The notes under the pieces: model-generated
Database searches by the model: none
Seen by the model: the letters and a program-made list of their open reading frames with translations, nothing else
Told to the model about the DNA's origin: nothing
Made by a program: the position numbers and the translations under genes
In this document: positions 15,291-24,584 of the stretch, piece by piece
Position numbering within the stretch: position 1 is the stretch's first letter
How the letters are laid out: each line of letters opens with the position of its first letter
NCBI RefSeq assembly: GCF_000735355.1
Contig: NZ_JMPI01000022.1
Coordinates: 248,025 to 312,024 of the forward strand
Reading direction: 5' to 3'
DNA from: Buttiauxella agrestis ATCC 33320
GTDB lineage: Bacteria; Pseudomonadota; Gammaproteobacteria; Enterobacterales; Enterobacteriaceae
Length of the DNA stretch: 64,000 nucleotides

Positions 15291-15551
15291 TTATTTATAG
15301 ATAACCGCAGTACCGCTCATTTTGCCGTTGGTGTTAGCAGAAGTAATTGAGTACGCTTTTGCGCCAGCTTGTTCTGCTTTAGAAGCCAGTTGTGCTTCCA
15401 GGCCATCCAGAGTCGTTGCGTTATCAGCAGAAACCACACCAATTTTGTTCATGTTCTGTGCTTCAGATGGGCTGATAGATTGTGCAGCGAATGCGCCGAA
15501 AGAAAGAGTGGTCAGGGCGATAGCGGCTACAGCATATTTGATGGTTTTCAT
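15291..15551 (-). CDS. ybiJ: YhcN/BhsA-family periplasmic protein YbiJ
   Basis: An 86-residue secreted protein of the DUF1471 (YhcN/BhsA/McbA) family, small stress- and biofilm-related periplasmic proteins. It has a typical signal peptide of 22 residues (FGAFA|AQS). The mature domain has the family pattern IGVVSADNATTLDGLEAQL and ends SGTAVIYK. It is collinear with E. coli YbiJ along its whole length. A paralogue (McbA) lies at 24146 beyond the accessory island; in E. coli the two are much closer together. Confidence 0.93.
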   Translation of the reverse strand: MKTIKYAVAAIALTTLSFGAFAAQSISPSEAQNMNKIGVVSADNATTLDGLEAQLASKAEQAGAKAYSITSANTNGKMSGTAVIYK

Positions 15552-15910: not shown

Positions 15911-16732
15911 ATGGAGATCAAGCTGCACTCCAACGCCACCACCACGCCGCGTACCCGCAAATATATTCAAAGCTCTGACAAAACCGACAGTGAACTGGCG
16001 GAGGAGTTGAATATTTCTGTGGATACCGTCAGGCGCTGGCGTAAGCGAGATGACTGTTATGACAAATCTCATCGACCTAATACCATTCATCGTGCATTGA
16101 GCCATGAGCAGGAGGCGATGCTGGTCTTTCTGCGAGTACGTTTATCACTTTCCCTGGATGAGCTTGTGGAAGCCGCGCAATTGCTGGTCCAGCAGGGTAT
16201 TTCGCGCGCCAGTGTCAGCAGAACATTGCAAAACTGGCAGCAATCCCGGCTCGCTAAACCTGATTTAAAGCAGCCGGTCGGACATTTGCGCCTTGATGTG
16301 TTTTCGCTTCCTGAAAGCATTAGCCATAAACACGGCTCGTTGCTGGCCTTTAGTTGTCCGGTTTCTGGGTTTTTGGCGGTGGCATTGCGTGAACGAGGCG
16401 AACAACAATCCCTTGATGCGCTGGTCGGTTTTTTGCAGCAGGGTTTACTATTGAAAGTGCGGTCATTAACGGCCTGTTCTACCACGCTGACCCAACAACT
16501 GGCGCAACAACTTGGGGTTCCCTTGCATGAAGCCCAGCCGGAAGCCTGGCTTGAAAGAGCCGCAAGCGGTGAGTGGACGCAAACGCTGGAACAGTTACTT
16601 AACGGTGAGCGTTACGATAGGCGTTTGGGTTTTGGCGCGGTGTTGCTGGAATTTGAAGATTTGCTGAATAAGAGGATTATCCGCAGCCGACTTAAAAACC
16701 TCTCGCCGGCTGCGTGGCTAAAAACTCGTTAA
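15911..16732 (+). CDS. domesticated transposase-like HTH protein
   Basis: A 273-residue protein with an N-terminal helix-turn-helix (about residues 26-45, DSELAEELNISVDTVRRWRKR), then a second helical region and a degraded RNase-H-like core. The order resembles IS481/IS3-type transposases: GHLRLDVFSLPES (Asp129) stands where such enzymes have the first catalytic Asp in a LHID-like strand. The second Asp (usual DNG motif) and the catalytic Glu are not found, and no terminal inverted repeats flank the gene. I infer a transposase-derived DNA-binding protein, possibly a regulator, not an active element. Its stop codon overlaps that of the convergent PTS IIB gene. The function is unknown. Confidence 0.65.
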   Translation: MEIKLHSNATTTPRTRKYIQSSDKTDSELAEELNISVDTVRRWRKRDDCYDKSHRPNTIHRALSHEQEAMLVFLRVRLSLSLDELVEAAQLLVQQGISRASVSRTLQNWQQSRLAKPDLKQPVGHLRLDVFSLPESISHKHGSLLAFSCPVSGFLAVALRERGEQQSLDALVGFLQQGLLLKVRSLTACSTTLTQQLAQQLGVPLHEAQPEAWLERAASGEWTQTLEQLLNGERYDRRLGFGAVLLEFEDLLNKRIIRSRLKNLSPAAWLKTR

Positions 16733-17034
16733 TTAATCAGGCTCAACGCATGGTCAAGAATCTTCTCCCCGTTGACCATACCGTAATCCATCATATTAAT
16801 GGTTTCCACTCGCTTATTAAGCGGCGCGGCAATCTGTTTGCAGTCTGCGAGCTTATAGGCGATTTGCGGGCCAAGCAGTGCGCAGTCAAAAGCAGTAATC
16901 GCGTTTTTAAAATCGCTCATTCCTTTCGCCTGAATCTCGACTTCAAGCTGGCGTTTCACCGCCGCTTCCTGCATGCGTTTGACGACCAGACTGGTCGACA
17001 TGCCTAAATCACATACCAGTAGAATCTTTTTCAT
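16729..17034 (-). CDS. PTS lactose/cellobiose-family IIB component
   Basis: A 101-residue cytoplasmic phosphocarrier. The N-terminus KKILLVCDLGMSTS carries the phospho-accepting Cys8 in the P-loop typical of the cellobiose/chitobiose IIB class (ChbB-like). It is the last gene of the operon IIC-glycosylasparaginase-aminopeptidase-IIB, and its start overlaps the end of the aminopeptidase gene by 26 bases. No IIA gene is present nearby, so IIA would have to come from another locus such as a chb-type operon. The substrate is inferred from its neighbours to be a glycosyl-asparagine compound. Confidence 0.85.
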   Translation of the reverse strand: MKKILLVCDLGMSTSLVVKRMQEAAVKRQLEVEIQAKGMSDFKNAITAFDCALLGPQIAYKLADCKQIAAPLNKRVETINMMDYGMVNGEKILDHALSLIN

Positions 17035-18478
17035 TTGTCTTTCCTTTGCAGATGTCGAGTAAGAATTGCGTCAGTAACAGAGCAGGGCGGCCGCTGGCCT
17101 GGGTGAATTTACCCCGACTCAACGCGGTGCCGCTGACATCTAAATGCGCCCACGGCGACTGGTGGCAAAACTTACTTAAGAATTGGGCGGCGGATACCGC
17201 GATGGCCGCGTTATTGGGCGGTGTGTTCGTGAGGTCGGCAATATGGCTTTTGACTTGCGAATCAAAGCTTTCGTCGAGCGGCAGCGGCCAGATTCGGTCC
17301 TGGGTTAAATCGGCTGCCTGCTGCAATTGGTGGCTAAGGGGGGAATCATTACTCATCAGCCCGGAGATGTCATACCCCAGGGCTTTGACTACCGCTCCGG
17401 TCAGGGTGGCGACATCAATTAGCGCTGCCGGATTAAAGCGCGTTGAGGCGTAGCTCAGCGCATCCGCTAAAACCAGGCGACCTTCAGCATCGGTATTTAT
17501 AATTTCGACGCTATGACCGGCGTGCGATTTCACCACATCACCCGGCAGCATGGCGTTAACGCCAGGCATGTTTTCGGCCAGCGCCATCACGGCGACAACA
17601 TTGAGCGGGAGTTGCAGCGTTTTGACGATTTCCATCAGCCCGAACACCACGGCAGCACCACACATATCGTATTTCATGGTGCGCATTCCTTCGCCTTCTT
17701 TCAGCCACATCCCGCCGGTATCGAAGGTAATGCCTTTGCCGACAAACGCGTAATACGGTGCGTTTTCCGCGCCACCTTGCCAGCGCAGCGTCACCAACCG
17801 GGGCGGGTTGTCGCTGCCTTTTCCTGTGGCATCAAGACAACCTAAACCCTGCTTGCGAATGGCGTGTTCATCAAGGATTTCACAGTGCGTTTGCGGATGC
17901 TCGCACGCCCAGCTTTCAGCTTGTTGGGCCACATCATGCGGGCGGCAGTCATTTGCCGGAGTGTCGGCCAGTTTGCGCGAAAGCAGCATACCTTGAGCAA
18001 CTGCCTGCGTTTGCGCAGCCAGTTCTGACGATTGCGTGTTGTGTTCTGCCACCAGTAATAACAGTTGCCCGTGACTTTGCGCTTGCTGGGCGCGATATCC
18101 CAACTGCGGCAACTGATAGAAACGGTTCATCACTGCCACCAGGAAGGTGCGCAGGCGTGCAAAAACGACACGGTTTGCCAGGTCAAAACCTGAGATATCG
18201 ACGGCGACAGGGTGTGAAAGCGGGCCTGGCAAAACGCTATTCAGGTATTCTGTTAACTGGCGCAGCACTTCAGGACGCTCAATTTTTGCCGCAGATAAAA
18301 GCGTCAGTTGCAGGCATTTGCTGCTTAAACCGAAAGTGGTGGTTTGCGATTCACTGGAGAGCGCCATTTCATCCAGCAGCGGGCGCAGCGTTTGCGGCCA
18401 CGCGTTGGCGTGAGCTTTCCACAGTATTAAATGCGCATCAGCCGGACATTGCGTAAGGGGGGTTAACTGACATTTCAT
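17009..18478 (-). CDS. M17 leucyl aminopeptidase family protein
   Basis: A 489-residue cytosolic di-metal aminopeptidase of the PepA/PepB family, which removes N-terminal amino acids from peptides. The catalytic domain shows the metal and active-site motifs VGKGITFDTGG, MKYDMCGAA and the family signature NTDAEGRL. It is a third, diverged type beside PepA and PepB, and is embedded in a PTS operon: its start overlaps the stop of the glycosylasparaginase gene by four bases, and the IIB gene starts inside its end. In this setting it may trim amino acids from imported glycopeptides, because glycosylasparaginases need an Asn with free alpha-amino and carboxyl groups. That role is inference. Confidence 0.88.
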   Translation of the reverse strand: MKCQLTPLTQCPADAHLILWKAHANAWPQTLRPLLDEMALSSESQTTTFGLSSKCLQLTLLSAAKIERPEVLRQLTEYLNSVLPGPLSHPVAVDISGFDLANRVVFARLRTFLVAVMNRFYQLPQLGYRAQQAQSHGQLLLLVAEHNTQSSELAAQTQAVAQGMLLSRKLADTPANDCRPHDVAQQAESWACEHPQTHCEILDEHAIRKQGLGCLDATGKGSDNPPRLVTLRWQGGAENAPYYAFVGKGITFDTGGMWLKEGEGMRTMKYDMCGAAVVFGLMEIVKTLQLPLNVVAVMALAENMPGVNAMLPGDVVKSHAGHSVEIINTDAEGRLVLADALSYASTRFNPAALIDVATLTGAVVKALGYDISGLMSNDSPLSHQLQQAADLTQDRIWPLPLDESFDSQVKSHIADLTNTPPNNAAIAVSAAQFLSKFCHQSPWAHLDVSGTALSRGKFTQASGRPALLLTQFLLDICKGKTNEKDSTGM

Positions 18479-19443
18479 ACGATCACCTCGGCGGTAATAC
18501 GTTCGATATAGGCATCAAGCCACGCCTGGTCTGCCGGGCGAATCAGCGTGTGTTTTCCTTCGCGGGTTGTCAAAAATACCGCTGGCGTTTGCGCTGCCGT
18601 GGCGACTGAAAACGAGAAGTTATCAATGGTCGTGGCTGCACCGTATTCACCGCGGTTATTCATACACACCACCGACAAATCACCGGCGCGACCATAGCGG
18701 GCAATCAATTGGCTTTCGAGGTCGTAAACCGCTGATTCAGCCGCCTGTTGGGGTGACATTCCGCGCCCCATGCGGCTGACGATTTCGTAGCTGATGCAGC
18801 CTTTCATCAAGTCTTCGCCAAGGCCGGTGGCGGTGGCGGCACCAATCTGGCTGTCGGCATAAAAACCGGAACCCGATACCGGTGAATCGCCCACGCGCCC
18901 AGGGCGTTTCATAAACAAGCCGCTGGTGGAGGTGGCGACGCACATCTGTTGATTCTGATCGAGCGTAATCACACCAACGGTATCGTGGCCGGTGTACGGG
19001 CTGAGGCCGCGATCCAGCGTTTCACGTTTACGCTTGAGATAATGCTGATGGGCGCGATCGGTCAGCATGTTTTTGCGCTCAAAACCTTGCGCGAGCGCCC
19101 AGGTTTGCGCGCCTTCGCCGACCATAAAACTGTTGAAGCGCTCGCGGCTTAAGGCTTGTGCCACCAGAATTGGGTTAGCGATATCACGGATACTGGCCAC
19201 CGCGCCGATGGCGAGCGTTGAACCGTCCATAAATGCAGCGTCCAGTTCAACCACACCTTGTTCGTTAGGCAAGCCGCCGTAACCAACTGATTTATAAAAT
19301 GGATAATCTTCTACACAGGTGACTGCGCGAACCGCAGCACCACTGGCGTCGTTGTTCCCTTGCAATAACTGCGCGGCTTCACTGACCCCTTCCCAGGCCA
19401 TACGCCAGGTCGCTATCACGCCCCAGTTTTTTGATAACGTCAT
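18475..19443 (-). CDS. N4-(beta-N-acetylglucosaminyl)-L-asparaginase (glycosylasparaginase)
   Basis: An Ntn-hydrolase (family T2) that cuts the GlcNAc-Asn amide bond. The 322-residue precursor contains the autoprocessing site His153-Asp154|Thr155 (GHDTVGV), where Thr155 becomes the N-terminal nucleophile of the beta chain. Comparison with human and Flavobacterium enzymes from memory shows every substrate residue at the right spacing: Thr173, Arg183 and Asp186 (PGRVGDSP), Thr206-Gly207 (ATG) and Trp13 near the N-terminus. This separates it from plain isoaspartyl aminopeptidases such as IaaA. There is no signal peptide, unlike the Flavobacterium and lysosomal enzymes, so it should act in the cytoplasm after import. 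It is the second gene of the PTS operon, eight bases after IIC. Confidence 0.9.
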   Translation of the reverse strand: MTLSKNWGVIATWRMAWEGVSEAAQLLQGNNDASGAAVRAVTCVEDYPFYKSVGYGGLPNEQGVVELDAAFMDGSTLAIGAVASIRDIANPILVAQALSRERFNSFMVGEGAQTWALAQGFERKNMLTDRAHQHYLKRKRETLDRGLSPYTGHDTVGVITLDQNQQMCVATSTSGLFMKRPGRVGDSPVSGSGFYADSQIGAATATGLGEDLMKGCISYEIVSRMGRGMSPQQAAESAVYDLESQLIARYGRAGDLSVVCMNNRGEYGAATTIDNFSFSVATAAQTPAVFLTTREGKHTLIRPADQAWLDAYIERITAEVIV

Positions 19444-19451
19444 GTTTTTAC

Positions 19452-20759
19452 TTACTCCGTGGCGGGTTTAGTTGTGGCAGAAATTTCCGGGGTTTCATTC
19501 GCCCGGTATTGCTTGTCCACGACTTTAAGGAACGGCAGATAGATGATGGCGCCAATCAACAGATTGATGAGCTGAATTACAGCACCGCTGAGATGCCCGG
19601 TAACGATAAACCCGCTTAATACTGGCGGCAGCGTCCACGGGATATAGACCCCAGTGGTGGTGGCGACCCAACCTATAGACATGGTGATGTATTGCACCGT
19701 CACGAGGACCAGCGGGACCAGGTTGAATGGGATAAGCATTATCGGGTTCATGATGACCGGCAGGCCAAACAGCACCGGCTCGTTAATGTTGAAGATGGAA
19801 GAACCGGCAGCGAGACGCGAAACATTCTTAATGTGCTGGCTGCGGGCAAATAACAGCATAGCAATCACCAGAGACAAGGTGGCTCCCGCGCCGCCCATCC
19901 AAATCATGTCGTAGAACTGCTCGGTGACCACATGCGGAGGCAGCAAGCCTGCCTGCGTTGCGGTCAAGTTCTCCATTTGGTTTTCCATCCAGAATGGACG
20001 CAGGATGCCGTTGACCATCGAACCTGAGTTAATCCCTACTGACCACAGGCTGGTGATGCTAAAGCAAGTAAATAACGCGCCAACATAAGAAGTCCCGAAG
20101 TGGCGAATTGGCGTAGCCAGCACTTCGTAAACAAACTGGTGAATAGTGTGGTAATCCGTGCGGGCGAACAGCACGCGAATCGCGAGCGCAATCACCAGAA
20201 TCAGCAGCGATGGAATCAAAGCCGCGAACGATTTTTGTACCGCGGGTGGTACGCCATCCGGCATACGGATCACCCAATTGCGGCTTAGCATCCAGGCAAA
20301 TAATTCAGTGCTGGTAATTGCACCGAGCATCGCGACAAACAAACCCTTTGAACCCAACCATTCCATCGGAATGAGGTTGCCAATTTCCTGGGTTTTAGCG
20401 AAGGGGGTAAGAATCAGGAAGCAGGAGAGAGACAAAATCCCGGCGGACATTTTGTCGATGTCATAGCGCTCCGCCAGACGATAAGCGACCAGGAAACTAA
20501 TGAACACCGCCATAGTCGAGAAGATGGCATTAAACGGGATTTCGATAGTGGCAGACCAACCTTCACCAAAAATCGACGCCATAAACTGTTGATAGGCAGT
20601 GCTTGGGAAAGAGGAGATAACCAGCAGGATTGAACCGACAATAATAAAAGGCATAAACGAGATATACGCATCGCGAATGGCCCCGAGGTGGCGTTGTTGC
20701 GCCATTCTTCCGGCAAGTGGCATCAGCTTTGCTTCTATTGCGGCCATCAGGTTTTTCAT
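19452..20759 (-). CDS. PTS lactose/cellobiose-family IIC permease
   Basis: A 435-residue polytopic membrane permease of the Lac/chitobiose PTS class (CelB/ChbC-like), with about ten hydrophobic segments and the family stretches AYISFMPFIIVGSI near the N-terminus and NINEPVLFGLPVIMNP in the C-terminal half. ATG 20759 (MKNLMAAIEAKLMP) is preferred, since GGAG lies nine bases upstream; a further in-frame start at 20792 adds eleven unsupported residues. It is the first gene of the four-gene operon ending in IIB. A CRP-like site and a 20-bp operator-like palindrome lie 22-90 bases upstream. The likely substrate is a GlcNAc-containing compound, inferred from the adjoining glycosylasparaginase. Confidence 0.88.
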   Translation of the reverse strand: MKNLMAAIEAKLMPLAGRMAQQRHLGAIRDAYISFMPFIIVGSILLVISSFPSTAYQQFMASIFGEGWSATIEIPFNAIFSTMAVFISFLVAYRLAERYDIDKMSAGILSLSCFLILTPFAKTQEIGNLIPMEWLGSKGLFVAMLGAITSTELFAWMLSRNWVIRMPDGVPPAVQKSFAALIPSLLILVIALAIRVLFARTDYHTIHQFVYEVLATPIRHFGTSYVGALFTCFSITSLWSVGINSGSMVNGILRPFWMENQMENLTATQAGLLPPHVVTEQFYDMIWMGGAGATLSLVIAMLLFARSQHIKNVSRLAAGSSIFNINEPVLFGLPVIMNPIMLIPFNLVPLVLVTVQYITMSIGWVATTTGVYIPWTLPPVLSGFIVTGHLSGAVIQLINLLIGAIIYLPFLKVVDKQYRANETPEISATTKPATE

Positions 20760-20780: not shown

Positions 20781-20800
20781 CACAAGAGACAATTCTTGTG
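20781..20800. promoter_or_regulatory. operator-like palindrome before the PTS operon
   Basis: CACAAGA / TCTTGTG, seven-base arms with a six-base spacer, 22-41 bases ahead of the IIC ATG and downstream of a TATAC promoter-like sequence near 20805. This is a suitable place for a repressor. No dedicated regulator gene is adjacent except possibly the HTH gene at 15911. Confidence 0.5.
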
Positions 20801-20833: not shown

Positions 20834-20849
20834 AGTGAGAGGATTCACA
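20834..20849. promoter_or_regulatory. CRP-like site before the PTS operon
   Basis: AGTGA-N6-TCACA, one mismatch from the CRP core TGTGA-N6-TCACA and flanked by A-runs, 75-90 bases ahead of the IIC ATG. It suggests catabolite control of the operon. Confidence 0.55.
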
Positions 20850-20922
20850 AAAGTATCATGTGATTGCTTATTGATTTTGTCAGTCAGGCAACATTGCGTT
20901 TGCCTGACCGACCGTACTGCAA

Positions 20923-22224
20923 TTACATCAGTCCCAACATCCGAGGAATGAAGAGGGAAATCTCAGGAATGTAGGTAATCATCATCAGTGAGACAAACAG
21001 CGCGGCATAGAAGGGCAGCAACGGTTTGATCAGATTCTGAATTTTAACGCCTGTGATGGAGCAGCCGACAAACAGTGCGCTGCCAACCGGAGGAGTCAGC
21101 AAGCCGACGCACAAGTTAGCCACCATCATGATGCCGAAGTGAACCGGATCCATCCCCAAATCTTGCGCGATAGGCAGGAAGATTGGCGTGAAGATAAGTA
21201 CCGCTGGCGTCATATCCATAAAGATGCCGACAATGAGCAGCACGATGTTGATAAGCAACAGAATCACCAGCGGGTTATCTGAGACACCCATCAGCGCATC
21301 GCTAATCATGTAGGGAATATCCGCGTTGGTCATGGCCCAGGACATGCCAACCGAGAAACCAATGAGCAGCAGAACAATCGAGGTTGTCACCACCGAATCA
21401 AGGATGAGCTTTGGCAAATCACGCCATTTCACTTCGCGATAGATAAGCACCGAAAGGACGAAGGTGTAAACCACCGCGATGGCTGAGGCTTCCGTTGCGG
21501 TGAATACGCCGCCCAGAATCCCGCCCATGACGATAATCACCAGCAACAGGCTTGGCAACGCGTCGAGAAACGCTTTTGCCGCTTGTGCGCAGGTTGGACG
21601 TGCAGATACCGGATAGCCGCGGCGCCGGGAGATAATCCAACACACCAGCATGATTGACAGGCCCATTAAGATGCCCGGCAAATAACCGGCCATAAATAAC
21701 GATGCCACCGATACGCCACCCGCCGTCAGCGAGAACACAATCAGCACGTTAGAAGGCGGAATCAGCAGCCCGGTAATGCACGATGAAACGTTCACCGCCG
21801 TTGAAAACGCCGGGTCATAACCTTCTTTATTTTGAATCGGGGAAAGTGTTCCCCCTACGGCTGCGGCAGCGGCAACAGCCGAACCGGAGATGGAGCCAAA
21901 CATCATATTCGCCAGGACGTTGACGTGGCCCAGAGAACCGGGAATACGGCCCACCATAATTTGCGCGAGATTAATTAAGCGGATGGCTATTCCGCCGCTG
22001 TTCATTAGCGTTCCGGCAAAAATAAAGAACGGAATCGCCAGCAGCGCAAAGTTATCCAGGCCATTGGCGAGACGCTGCGAAACAGTGATGACCGCCACAT
22101 CCCACGGGAACATCAGCAACATAGAGGAAACGGTGGCAATCCCAATCGCAAACGAAATAGGCACCCCGATAAACACCAGAACGAAGAACGCACCAAATAA
22201 GGTGAGGGCGATATAAGTTTCCAT
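20923..22224 (-). CDS. TRAP transporter large permease subunit (DctM family)
   Basis: The ion-coupled membrane subunit of a tripartite ATP-independent periplasmic transporter, 433 residues with about 12 hydrophobic segments. Family stretches are the early GVPISFAIGIA, the SGSAVAAAAAVGG loop, GGVFTATEASAIAVVY near residue 240, and the late GLLTPPVGSALFVG. Its first base overlaps the last base of the DctQ gene. It is the third gene of a DctP-DctQ-DctM run. No catabolic enzyme is encoded beside it, so the substrate, probably an organic or sugar acid, cannot be inferred from context. Confidence 0.93.
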   Translation of the reverse strand: METYIALTLFGAFFVLVFIGVPISFAIGIATVSSMLLMFPWDVAVITVSQRLANGLDNFALLAIPFFIFAGTLMNSGGIAIRLINLAQIMVGRIPGSLGHVNVLANMMFGSISGSAVAAAAAVGGTLSPIQNKEGYDPAFSTAVNVSSCITGLLIPPSNVLIVFSLTAGGVSVASLFMAGYLPGILMGLSIMLVCWIISRRRGYPVSARPTCAQAAKAFLDALPSLLLVIIVMGGILGGVFTATEASAIAVVYTFVLSVLIYREVKWRDLPKLILDSVVTTSIVLLLIGFSVGMSWAMTNADIPYMISDALMGVSDNPLVILLLINIVLLIVGIFMDMTPAVLIFTPIFLPIAQDLGMDPVHFGIMMVANLCVGLLTPPVGSALFVGCSITGVKIQNLIKPLLPFYAALFVSLMMITYIPEISLFIPRMLGLM

Positions 22225-22721
22225 TATTTCCCTTCCTTGCTGACCAGAGTGTGAGCGTCGGTCAGGATAAAATAGAGCGAGTAAAACATCATAATTGCCC
22301 CGCTTAATGGCAGCACAATGTAGACATAACCCATCGGGATTTGTAACGCCGCTGAGAGCTGCGAAGTGGCTAATGTTTTTTCAATCAGTTTCAGGCCGCC
22401 GTTGACGATAACCGTCGCTGAAAACAGCAATATCAGCGAGTTGATAACGATGTTAAGCAGCGGTTTTTTATTATCTGGCAGCATCATCGAAAGGAAATCG
22501 ATGGAAAGATGGCGTTGTGCGCCAACGGTATAAGATGCGCCCAGCAGTCCCACCCAGATCATCAGAAAACGTGCCAGTTCATCGGTGAGGGTACTGGGTT
22601 GATTGAGGATGTAGCGGCTGAAAACCTGCCACACCACGCAGACGACCAGAGCAACCATCACCAGTACGGAAAAAGTGGCAATAGTCCGGTCTACCGCAAG
22701 CTTTATGGGCTTAAGTATCAT
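22224..22721 (-). CDS. TRAP transporter small permease subunit (DctQ family)
   Basis: A 165-residue membrane protein with four hydrophobic segments. The family pattern VVWQVFSRYILNQPSTLTDELARFLMIW (residues about 30-57; shown only as the recognisable QVFSRY and DELARF motifs) is clear. It bridges the binding protein and the large permease. It lies between the DctP and DctM genes with a one-base overlap on DctM. Confidence 0.92.
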   Translation of the reverse strand: MILKPIKLAVDRTIATFSVLVMVALVVCVVWQVFSRYILNQPSTLTDELARFLMIWVGLLGASYTVGAQRHLSIDFLSMMLPDNKKPLLNIVINSLILLFSATVIVNGGLKLIEKTLATSQLSAALQIPMGYVYIVLPLSGAIMMFYSLYFILTDAHTLVSKEGK

Positions 22722-22793
22722 GTTTGCATACCTGAAATTTAACCTGGAAGAGCGGGCGATGACTGATCACCCGCTGAAACTTACCGCTCTAAA

Positions 22794-23780
22794 TCACTCA
22801 ACAGCGGATTCAAATTTAGCCAGCAACGCAGCCTGTTTAGGATCTTTGGCGAAGTCGTCATACAGCGGTTTTACTGCGGCGCGGAATGGGGCTTTATCAA
22901 CGCTGACGATAGTCGCGCCCATGGCTTTAGCCTGAGCACGTGAGTCAGCATCGACTTTCTCCCAAAGCTTTTGTTGATACGCTTCGGAGTTTTTAGCCGC
23001 TTTCATCAGGATTTGCTGCTGTTCAGGTGACAGCTTTTGCCAGGTTTTCGTGGAGATAACGAGGAAGTCAGGGATGGAAGTATGTTCATCTTCGGAGAAC
23101 ACTTTAGCGATTTCGATATGGCGAGTCTGAACCCATGACGGCACGTTATTTTCTGCACCATCAACCACGCCTTGTTGCATTGCGGTATACACTTCACCGA
23201 ATGAAATAGGAGTGGGTGAACCGCCCATCAATTCAACCATTTTTAATGTTGTAGGGCTTGCCTGGACACGAATTTTAAGCCCTTTTAAATCTTCTGGTTT
23301 GGTAATCGGTTTTTTAGCATAGAAACTACGGGTGCCGGCAACATAGGCAGAAATACCGAAGAACCCTTTATCTTTTGTTGATTCCATAATTTCTTTGCCG
23401 ACTTCACCAAACACCACGCGATTAAAATGCTGCTGGTCTTTAAATAAATACGGCAAATTATAAATAGCGTAAGTATTGTCAAAAGATTCCAAATCACTGG
23501 CCGAACCTTTCGTCATATCCAGCGCACCGTTTTGCAAAAGCTCCAGTGTTTCGCGCGCGCTGCCCATTTGGCTGCTTGGGTAAATACGAATACGCATATT
23601 ACCATCAGAAAGTTGTTGTACCTCTTTGGCTAATTCTTCAAATGCCAGATGCACAACATGGCTACGTTCCAGGTTATGTGCCAGTTTTAAGGTGATTTTA
23701 TCTGCGGCATTTGCGCCAGTGGCACATAAAGTCATCAGTGAGGCACAGAGTATTTGGCGAGGTAGAGTTAAAAATTTCAT
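22794..23780 (-). CDS. TRAP transporter substrate-binding protein (DctP family)
   Basis: A periplasmic binding protein of 328 residues with a signal peptide of about 26 residues (CATGANA|ADK). The DctP family region LKGLKIRVQASP contains the conserved arginine that usually pairs with a substrate carboxylate, and VDGAENN follows, so the ligand is probably an acid. ATG 23780 follows GGGAG by eight bases; a six-residue upstream extension is not favoured. It is first in the TRAP operon. It is clearly not the YiaO type of E. coli. The substrate is unknown. Confidence 0.92.
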   Translation of the reverse strand: MKFLTLPRQILCASLMTLCATGANAADKITLKLAHNLERSHVVHLAFEELAKEVQQLSDGNMRIRIYPSSQMGSARETLELLQNGALDMTKGSASDLESFDNTYAIYNLPYLFKDQQHFNRVVFGEVGKEIMESTKDKGFFGISAYVAGTRSFYAKKPITKPEDLKGLKIRVQASPTTLKMVELMGGSPTPISFGEVYTAMQQGVVDGAENNVPSWVQTRHIEIAKVFSEDEHTSIPDFLVISTKTWQKLSPEQQQILMKAAKNSEAYQQKLWEKVDADSRAQAKAMGATIVSVDKAPFRAAVKPLYDDFAKDPKQAALLAKFESAVE

Positions 23781-24145
23781 AAATAATGCTCCCTGCATAA
23801 AATATTAAGTGAGGATGAGAGATTGTTATTGCTGTATGACAGCTTATTGTATTTGTCTGATAACCAGGGTGTGTCGAGGTCACATTTTTAATCGAATGGG
23901 ATTGGTTTAGATCTTTTTTGTGCCCTTGCTCACCTTTCTGAATTTATTAATAAATGCAATTTTGATTGCGGGAGTGATTAATTTTCGGATTAAAGCGATG
24001 AATGCAAGGAAATACCGATGTTTTAATGCGGAATTACTATGACTTTTTATTAATATGTTAATTAGAACTTAAACTTAACAATAAAATAACGGTCTCCTGT
24101 TGTGGAAACCGTTATTATTGGAACCCCTCAGGGGATTTCTTGAGA
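23781..24145. other. AT-rich intergenic region between TRAP operon and mcbA
   Basis: 365 bp, conspicuously AT-rich around 23930-24080. It should hold the TRAP promoter. A perfect CRP half-site (TGTGA, minus strand, near 23880) is followed by only a poor second half. The stem-loop at 24085-24116 serves mcbA. No gene is seen. Confidence 0.5.
24085..24116 (-). terminator. probable terminator of mcbA
   Basis: Nine-base arms AATAACGGT / ACCGTTATT flank a 14-base loop, with TTTATT following on the minus strand. A smaller CCCCT/AGGGG hairpin lies between it and the mcbA stop. Confidence 0.55.
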
Positions 24146-24406
24146 CTATTTATAAATAGTCGCGGTGCCGAACATACGTTCATTACCGCTAGCCGAGTTA
24201 ACAATAAAACCTTTTGCTCCTTCTTCTTTCGCTTTCTCTCCAAGTTTGGCTTGCAGATCATCAAGGCTTGAAGCGCCAGTGACAGAAACGGTTCCTGCCG
24301 GACGTAGTTGGCCTGTGTTCATATCACTCATTTCTTGGGCTGCCATGGTAGCAAACGGTAATGCCGCAAGGGTGACAACCGCAGAAAAATACAGCAATTT
24401 TTTCAT
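24146..24406 (-). CDS. mcbA: YhcN/BhsA-family periplasmic protein McbA
   Basis: An 86-residue secreted DUF1471 protein. In E. coli McbA (YbiM) is induced by the MqsR/McbR system and represses colanic-acid-dependent mucoidy. It has a signal peptide (FATMA|AQE) and the family-specific TGQLRPAGTVSVTGASSLDDL and FGTATIYK end, matching McbA rather than BhsA or YbiJ. ATG 24406 has GAGGA seven bases upstream, whereas the in-frame GTG six bases earlier sits on top of it. Confidence 0.9.
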   Translation of the reverse strand: MKKLLYFSAVVTLAALPFATMAAQEMSDMNTGQLRPAGTVSVTGASSLDDLQAKLGEKAKEEGAKGFIVNSASGNERMFGTATIYK

Positions 24407-24584
24407 AATCACATCCTCATCGCTTTTAGGGGTCGATTAAAAAAACATCAACACTGAAAGTGTAGGTCTAATGTGATAATTAAAGGACGCAAAAAATTGA
24501 TGAACTCATGCTCATTTTTTGAACGACATTACTTGACGAAATTCTTACAAATCATACAGATACAGGTTCATGATTTTGTTAGTT

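Follow-up and report, generated by a model that had tools for sequence, protein, structure and literature searches.

A phosphotransferase-glycosylasparaginase operon of Buttiauxella agrestis as a probable GlcNAc-asparagine utilisation system of the ega type

Introduction

What is imported and cleaved by an operon that combines a sugar phosphotransferase system (PTS) with a glycosylasparaginase (AGA) and an aminopeptidase? The question is raised by four genes of Buttiauxella agrestis ATCC 33320 that lie in a stretch of 64,000 nucleotides (assembly GCF_000735355.1, contig NZ_JMPI01000022.1, positions 248,025 to 312,024; hereafter the window, from whose first letter coordinates are counted). A sequence-only reading had proposed that the PTS takes up N-acetylglucosamine-asparagine (GlcNAc-Asn) and that AGA cleaves it, and it knew of no description of such a gene set. 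We conclude, with a probability of about three in four, that the operon is a utilisation system for GlcNAc-asparagine, the stump of sugar and amino acid that remains after glycoproteins are digested, and that it is of the type encoded by the ega locus of Enterococcus faecalis. Uptake of GlcNAc-Asn by a lactose/cellobiose-class PTS and its subsequent cleavage by AGA is well supported and belongs to a kind already known; new here are the distinct peptidase, regulator, and operator within that kind. We infer the substrate, its 6-phosphorylation, the role of the peptidase, the pairing of regulator and operator, and the involvement of CutC.

The operon and its known counterparts

The four genes run on the reverse strand in the order IIC-AGA-M17-IIB. 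The first encodes a PTS IIC of the lactose/cellobiose family (19452..20759, -; PF02378 (PTS_EIIC), 1.1e-55; TIGR00359, 445 bits), which starts with ATG, a TTG in the same frame at 20792 being also open. It is followed by a cytoplasmic AGA with the nucleophile Thr155 in an HDT motif (18475..19443, -; PF01112 (Asparaginase_2), 3.5e-61), an M17 leucyl-aminopeptidase-type enzyme (17009..18478, -; PF00883 (Peptidase_M17), 1.2e-110), and a PTS IIB of the lactose/cellobiose family with Cys8 (16729..17034, -; PF02302 (PTS_IIB), 4.7e-18). The tight packing first read from the letters was borne out: all four open reading frames were recovered, their families were assigned by Pfam and NCBIfam, and the intergenic gaps calculated from the coordinates are +8, -4, and -26. 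The operon genes are under purifying selection, with ratios of nonsynonymous to synonymous substitution (dN/dS) of 0.01-0.12 against four Buttiauxella loci and one Cedecea locus; IIB, comparable in three of the five, reached 0.02-0.04. When the whole operon was searched as DNA against plasmids and E. coli, no record covered 80% of it, and the matches listed were AGA or PepA genes, or unannotated.

Combret et al. 2024, to go by its title, is said to deal with the use of glycoprotein-derived GlcNAc-Asn (ega). The E. faecalis ega locus comprises EgaG, EIIB, and EIIC together with a dipeptidase (PMC11160706), so that a PTS-glycosylasparaginase locus had already been published and the supposed novelty of the kind falls away, while the proposed uptake and cleavage agree with it. 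Both systems combine a glycosylasparaginase with EIIB and EIIC of the lactose/cellobiose family and a peptidase, in ega for GlcNAc-Asn use. They differ in gene order, in the lack of a IIA gene in the window operon, and in the accessory genes: a GntR regulator and a dipeptidase in ega, as opposed to a regulator with a helix-turn-helix (HTH) and an integrase fold and an M17 enzyme in the window. An Enterococcus raffinosus plasmid carries a locus of ega make-up, with GntR, dipeptidase, AGA, IIB, IIC, and IIA together; its IIC shares the Asn of position 244 in the window protein, and its AGA falls in the same starred set of the tree described below.

Other systems resemble the operon in part. The alf-2 genes of Lactobacillus casei likewise include a cytoplasmic glycosylasparaginase, AsnA2, and a peptidase gene, pepV, but differ by uptake through the major facilitator superfamily (MFS), a fucosidase, a sugar kinase, a fucosyl-GlcNAc-Asn substrate, and the lack of a PTS step (PMC6960285). 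In Latilactobacillus sakei, neighbouring locus tags within LSA1690-LSA1693 denote a cellobiose-type IIC (LSA1690), a GntR regulator (LSA1692), and asnA2 (LSA1693); the regulator differs from that of the window, and the likeness is drawn from table rows alone (PMC3146418). The diacetylchitobiose PTS (ChbC, or structure 3qnq) carries His at the position that corresponds to Asn244 of the window IIC, and it has no link to a glycosylasparaginase. In the fructose-asparagine (fra) and glucoselysine (gfr) systems, Amadori compounds are cleaved by SIS-type deglycases. These share with the operon the logic of importing a sugar-amino acid conjugate, but the operon holds no SIS-type deglycase and its four proteins match other families only. 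Text searches of the literature gave, among the matches listed, no description of a gammaproteobacterial IIC-AGA-M17-IIB set.

The glycosylasparaginase

The window AGA begins with MTLSKNWGVIATWRM, and no signal peptide is visible because the conserved ATWRM motif already lies at residue 11, in agreement with the earlier reading. Its relatives were collected by a scan of species genomes, from which the best 80 of 233 loci were taken (57-96% identity; by record title, 34 gammaproteobacterial and 46 from Bacillota, with four C. difficile genomes among them and four contigs that belong to a single Clostridium assembly). One of 113 alignment rows, L077, was dropped because the end of its contig leaves only a fragment. 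The substrate residues noted earlier were found to be kept: Thr155, Arg183, Asp186, Thr206, and Gly207 in 77/77 IIC-linked AGAs and Thr173 in 76/77, with all of them present in the window protein. We take Arg183, Asp186, and Thr206-Gly207 to bind the alpha-carboxyl and alpha-amino groups of the substrate.

A PF01112 protein need not be a glycosylasparaginase, as the family is common to AGA and IaaA. The PTS could then import another beta-glycoside while the AGA-type protein, as an isoaspartyl-dipeptidase, recycled damaged peptides together with the aminopeptidase; the peptidases of such loci could be housekeeping enzymes, and the genome holds a second PF01112 gene (322 aa) elsewhere. Several features make this very improbable, and the least probable of the three alternatives considered here. 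His153 and Thr155 of the HDT autoprocessing motif (H153-D154-T155 in the window) and Trp13, presumably an AGA-type feature by its role, occur in all 77 IIC-linked AGAs; the nearest chains in a PDB sequence search are glycosylasparaginases, at 181 bits versus 117 for the best chain without that name; and AGA and a lactose-family IIC stay paired in two phyla. Judged by its sequence, the window protein is nearer to the glycosylasparaginases (EC 3.5.1.26) than to the isoaspartyl peptidases.

Three further positions, Arg14 (adjoining Trp13), Arg130, and Lys/Arg180, are basic in 77/77 IIC-linked AGAs. Among 13 divergent AGAs, Lys or Arg occupies position 14 in six and position 180 in three, and Lys occupies position 130 in four. 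Chain 1p4k, which we take to be an Elizabethkingia-type AGA, has STWNFG and KMHGR at the corresponding positions. The three residues may perhaps form a pocket for a 6-phosphate. The divergent set retains L108 (G037), an AGA relative of 35-37% identity without the nucleophile Thr and without the Arg and Asp substrate residues.

The PTS components

The IIC protein carries a signature of its own. Position 244 is Asn in all 72 AGA-linked IICs (the window protein, 64/64 from the 80 loci, 5/5 from a sample of Bacilli, and two E. raffinosus loci), while ten other lactose-family IICs, two of them from the same genome, have His in nine cases, Gln in one, and Asn in none. Here AGA-linked means within the same locus, up to approximately 20 kb, the IIC of nine Bacillota loci lying 3-8 kb from AGA. 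The count took 64 of the 66 IIC-bearing loci (L049 and L060 were left out), and one intended control from E. raffinosus (L203) proved to be AGA-linked and was moved to that side, so that this species is counted twice. The sole PDB relative of the IIC by sequence, 3qnq of the cellobiose/diacetylchitobiose type, reads Gly-Ile-His at this position, and the chb-like IIC of the same genome also has His there; we assume this His to be part of the ChbC sugar site. The operon lacks a lactose-family IIA, but three are encoded elsewhere in the genome, each adjoining a IIB and one of them in a chb-like cluster, as judged by eye.

The peptidase

In 32/32 aligned M17 proteins, Lys248, Asp253, Asp271, Asp330, Glu332, and Arg334 are kept; we take them to be the metal ligands and the active-site Lys and Arg, and the catalytic residues thus appear intact by alignment. 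A peptidase accompanies AGA in 31/34 gammaproteobacterial and 41/46 Bacillota loci, and the use of M17 by gammaproteobacteria and of M20 by Bacillota suggests that a peptidase is selected for.

Such different companions of AGA, and the intact M17 site, would also suit a larger substrate, namely a short N-glycopeptide or (GlcNAc)2-Asn on which M17 and a 6-phospho-hexosaminidase encoded elsewhere would act first. Lactose-family IICs take small sugars, however, and the operon contains no glycosidase. In L. casei, moreover, PepV was dispensable for 6'FN-Asn (PMC6960285). We regard the larger substrate as unlikely, though the least unlikely of the alternatives.

Distribution and descent

The gammaproteobacterial loci come from Buttiauxella, Cedecea, Citrobacter, Klebsiella, Hafnia, Serratia, Providencia, Trabulsiella, Enterovibrio, Photobacterium, Endozoicomonas, Histophilus, and others. 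By tblastn, the 34 loci contain IIC in 34, M17 in 31, the HTH regulator in 33, IIB in 15, IIA in 11, and CutC in one, and the 46 Bacillota loci contain IIC in 32, an M20 dipeptidase in 40, CutC in 34, IIB in 33, IIA in 30, and a GrdB-like protein in 28. IIC lies at most 3 kb from AGA in 34/34 and in 24 of the 32 IIC-bearing loci, respectively. AGA and IIC are thus kept together in both groups, and NagA is present in the genome. Some Bacillota loci add a lyase (9/46), which we read as an aspartase from its Lyase_1/FumaraseC_C match, and a malic enzyme (7/46); both fit aspartate as a product. The short GrdB-like protein (NF041545, putative oxidoreductase; L046-L101, e.g., L065:2670-3191) may perhaps correspond to the oxidoreductase in ega.

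Within the genus, AGA occurs at 94-100% identity in 7/12 genomes (94-96% in the Buttiauxella loci L022-L025), the remaining five giving only a weaker match of 37-40%. Across the order, 11/394 genomes match at 1e-50 or better, eight at 63-100% identity and three at 37-38%. A tree of 109 AGA rows, for which the duplicates or copies L054-L056 and L111 were additionally dropped, places all 76 IIC-linked AGAs, E. raffinosus included, in one starred set of 96 rows (97/99), inside which the gammaproteobacterial PTS AGAs form a starred set of 38 (100/99). Several branches are long, so that the root and some joins are unsure and E. raffinosus is placed by a long branch. On these comparisons, the branch in gammaproteobacteria, whose peptidase is M17 instead of M20, appears to be new beyond ega.

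Proposed pathway and its weighing

In the reading that we prefer, GlcNAc-Asn would be imported and its sugar phosphorylated at C6 by IIC and IIB together with a IIA borrowed from another lactose-family PTS. M17 would trim small glycopeptides of any amino acids still present at the N terminus, leaving Asn with free alpha groups, and the cytoplasmic AGA would convert GlcNAc-6P-Asn to aspartate and 1-amino-GlcNAc-6-P. The latter would lose ammonia, either spontaneously or through the chromosomal CutC, to give GlcNAc-6-P, which would then pass to NagA and NagB. The operon would be controlled by a dedicated regulator of transposase fold at one palindromic operator, together with CRP.

Several observations weigh against this pathway. 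The comparison of lineages with ega was made through E. raffinosus, the E. faecalis locus being known by description. Position 180 of AGA is His in 5/13 divergent AGAs, and AGAs without a IIC in view carry Lys/Arg180 in 23/35 and Arg14 in 24/35 cases (some of these loci end with the contig); the residue signatures of AGA and IIC may mark descent as well as function. M17 diverges faster within the genus, at 82-87% identity versus 94-99% for AGA and IIC, and three Vibrionaceae loci have, by tblastn, neither M17 nor another peptidase. Finally, tblastn found no IIB in 19/34 and no IIA in 23/34 gammaproteobacterial loci, so that phosphoryl transfer must be borrowed there or IIC may act without it. 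In the B. agrestis locus L022 (12330-12520) and in five Cedecea-type loci (L027-L031, downstream of M17), IIB was not found while IIC, AGA, and M17 remain, which implies a borrowed IIB.

The same gaps would suit an entry of unphosphorylated GlcNAc-Asn through IIC with phosphorylation only after cleavage, as in L. casei, where alf-2 works with an MFS permease and the kinase SugK (PMC6960285). This is a distinctly unlikely route, as the operon encodes no kinase, the genome has IIB and IIA genes at other sites, and the window IIB keeps Cys8 under purifying selection.

CutC as a candidate for the glycosylamine step

Under the proposed phosphorylating pathway, cleavage by AGA would leave a glycosylamine. 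From GlcNAc-Asn, AsnA2 of L. casei releases Asp and 1-amino-GlcNAc, and the authors of that work describe the latter as a compound that cannot be metabolised but that is unstable under acidic conditions (PMC6960285). A protein that may handle this product is CutC, which takes its name from copper. Among 296 sampled genomes from the class of [Clostridium] spiroforme, it was present in 23/23 genomes with AGA (one of these AGAs being a stop-bearing fragment) and in 44/273 without it (Fisher 5e-17, a p-value that ignores phylogeny). It lies within approximately 1.6 kb of AGA in 13/23 and on another contig or far off in the others, so that hitch-hiking in an operon is no explanation by itself. In the class of C. 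difficile (n=291), the figures are 2/2 and 18/289, which adds little with only two AGA genomes. Each of the searched genomes of C. difficile and C. spiroforme has a single CutC, that of the AGA locus.

CutC adjoins or co-occurs with AGA in L036, L046-L101 (Bacillota), L106, L107, and L142, and Histophilus is among the lineages with CutC by AGA. In L106 and L107 the two genes overlap by 4 bases, L106 also having a BadF-family ATPase and an exported-looking AGA, and a Hymenobacter plasmid combines CutC and AGA with GH92, GH18, ROK, and NagB. In the nix N-glycan cluster of Xanthomonas, cutC is XAC3091 and the asparaginase XAC3092 (PMC6718126, PMC5700972); the locus tags suggest that the two adjoin. 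Away from AGA, 18 CutC loci were viewed, three of them from genomes with AGA elsewhere, and ten neighbour proteins from nine of these loci, picked because they seemed recognisable, were tested. One of the nine CutC genes overlaps a PF06089 asparaginase, two lie by NagA, one by a GH18 gene, and one by a GlcNAc-type PTS gene, these five being in genomes without an AGA match. The overlap (L145:1360-3128) looks as if another asparaginase family, PF06089 (L-asparaginase II), had replaced AGA.

If it acts on the glycosylamine, CutC would most likely hydrolyse 1-amino-GlcNAc or its 6-phosphate to GlcNAc or GlcNAc-6-P and ammonia. Hydrolysis is preferred because a C2-acetamido sugar should not undergo Amadori rearrangement, for which reason CutC was rejected as an Amadori isomerase. 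After CutC proteins themselves, the nearest folds are barrels including MJ1099, TrpF, and HisA; a shared fold does not by itself establish a function. As humans have a CutC homologue, the same role in animals is perhaps conceivable. In E. coli, the copper phenotype of cutC was reported to be entirely due to the small RNA MicL (PMC6538781). Among the matches listed in searches for CutC with glycosylasparaginase, glycosylamine, or N-acetylglucosamine, no proposal of a link was found.

Against the idea, CutC is nearby in only one of the 34 gammaproteobacterial loci; 12/46 Bacillota loci show none within view, of which three end within 1.4 kb downstream of AGA and nine do not; and most CutC genomes lack AGA (44/67 and 18/20 in the two class samples), which means that CutC must serve more widely or act on further substrates. 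The window operon itself has no CutC gene in or beside it, none being found by tblastn in the Buttiauxella loci; the sole copy of the genome lies elsewhere (L200:2883-3623). The comparative lead on CutC, as drawn from gene content, is strong. We hold only tentatively, at somewhat less than even odds, the joint proposal that CutC is the missing enzyme of glycosylasparagine catabolism and that the AGA of PTS systems acts on a 6-phosphorylated substrate through Arg14, Arg130, and Lys/Arg180.

Regulator and upstream region

A candidate regulator (15911..16732, +; HTH_23/HTH_29) combines an N-terminal HTH with a C-terminal degenerate integrase/transposase core, and its gene occurs in 33/34 gammaproteobacterial loci. 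The IS481 transposase model matches residues 22-120 only. As its profile gave only weak HTH matches to PDB sequences (E 0.4-0.8), a fold comparison was used, in which the regulator model matched IstA and retroviral integrases. No Asp or Glu past residue 84 is invariant or 90% conserved among 33 aligned members, and the C-terminal core thus lacks the conserved Asp-Asp-Glu catalytic triad of an IS481-type transposase.

Upstream of IIC lies an operator-like motif, AATCACATGATACTT (20851..20865, -). The motif was found in 36/39 upstream regions (one contig entering twice, as L036 and L111) versus a mean of 0.125 and a maximum of 2 in single-letter shuffles, having been discovered on the same sequences on which it was counted. 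The string AATCANNTGAKACTT occurs once in the genome, at this motif, and regulator and operator would form a pair. Beside it lies TGTGAATCCTCTCACT (20834..20849, -), whose pattern TGTGA-N6-TCA, called CRP-like from the CRP consensus, recurs in 30/39 regions. Scans for promoters and terminators gave no excess over shuffles. The IIC leader also contains an inverted repeat, CACAAGA-ATTGTC-TCTTGTG (20781-20800, -), partly kept in Cedecea davisae (L028), and a repeat of approximately 50 bases stands in tandem copies ahead of the operon in B. agrestis L022, with none seen there in the window.

Flanking genes

Directly upstream of IIC and on the same strand lies a tripartite ATP-independent periplasmic (TRAP) transporter, DctP-DctQ-DctM (20923-23783, -). 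It was rejected as a part of the system and is treated as a neighbour, since, of the 80 loci, the four from Buttiauxella have DctP and DctM and the other 76 showed neither. A sialic-acid specificity of its binding protein was also rejected, as other DctP proteins come ahead of the SiaP chains in the ranking. Two small proteins of secreted type that resemble each other (15291-15551, - and 24146-24412, -) bracket the block of TRAP, PTS, and regulator genes, and one cluster of small open reading frames has members on both sides of the operon in several Cedecea and Buttiauxella loci. These flanking frames perhaps mark an insertion site.

Conclusions

The pair of a PTS and a glycosylasparaginase is not a speciality of Enterococcus, as relatives occur in Enterobacterales, Vibrionaceae, Pasteurellaceae, Endozoicomonas, Clostridia (including C. 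difficile), and Erysipelotrichia. The residue signatures may allow readers of genomes to tell such PTS loci from those for chitobiose or cellobiose. For CutC, whose family includes a human protein and lacks a settled function, it becomes a testable question how the nitrogen of the glycosylamine is removed once N-glycans have been broken down.

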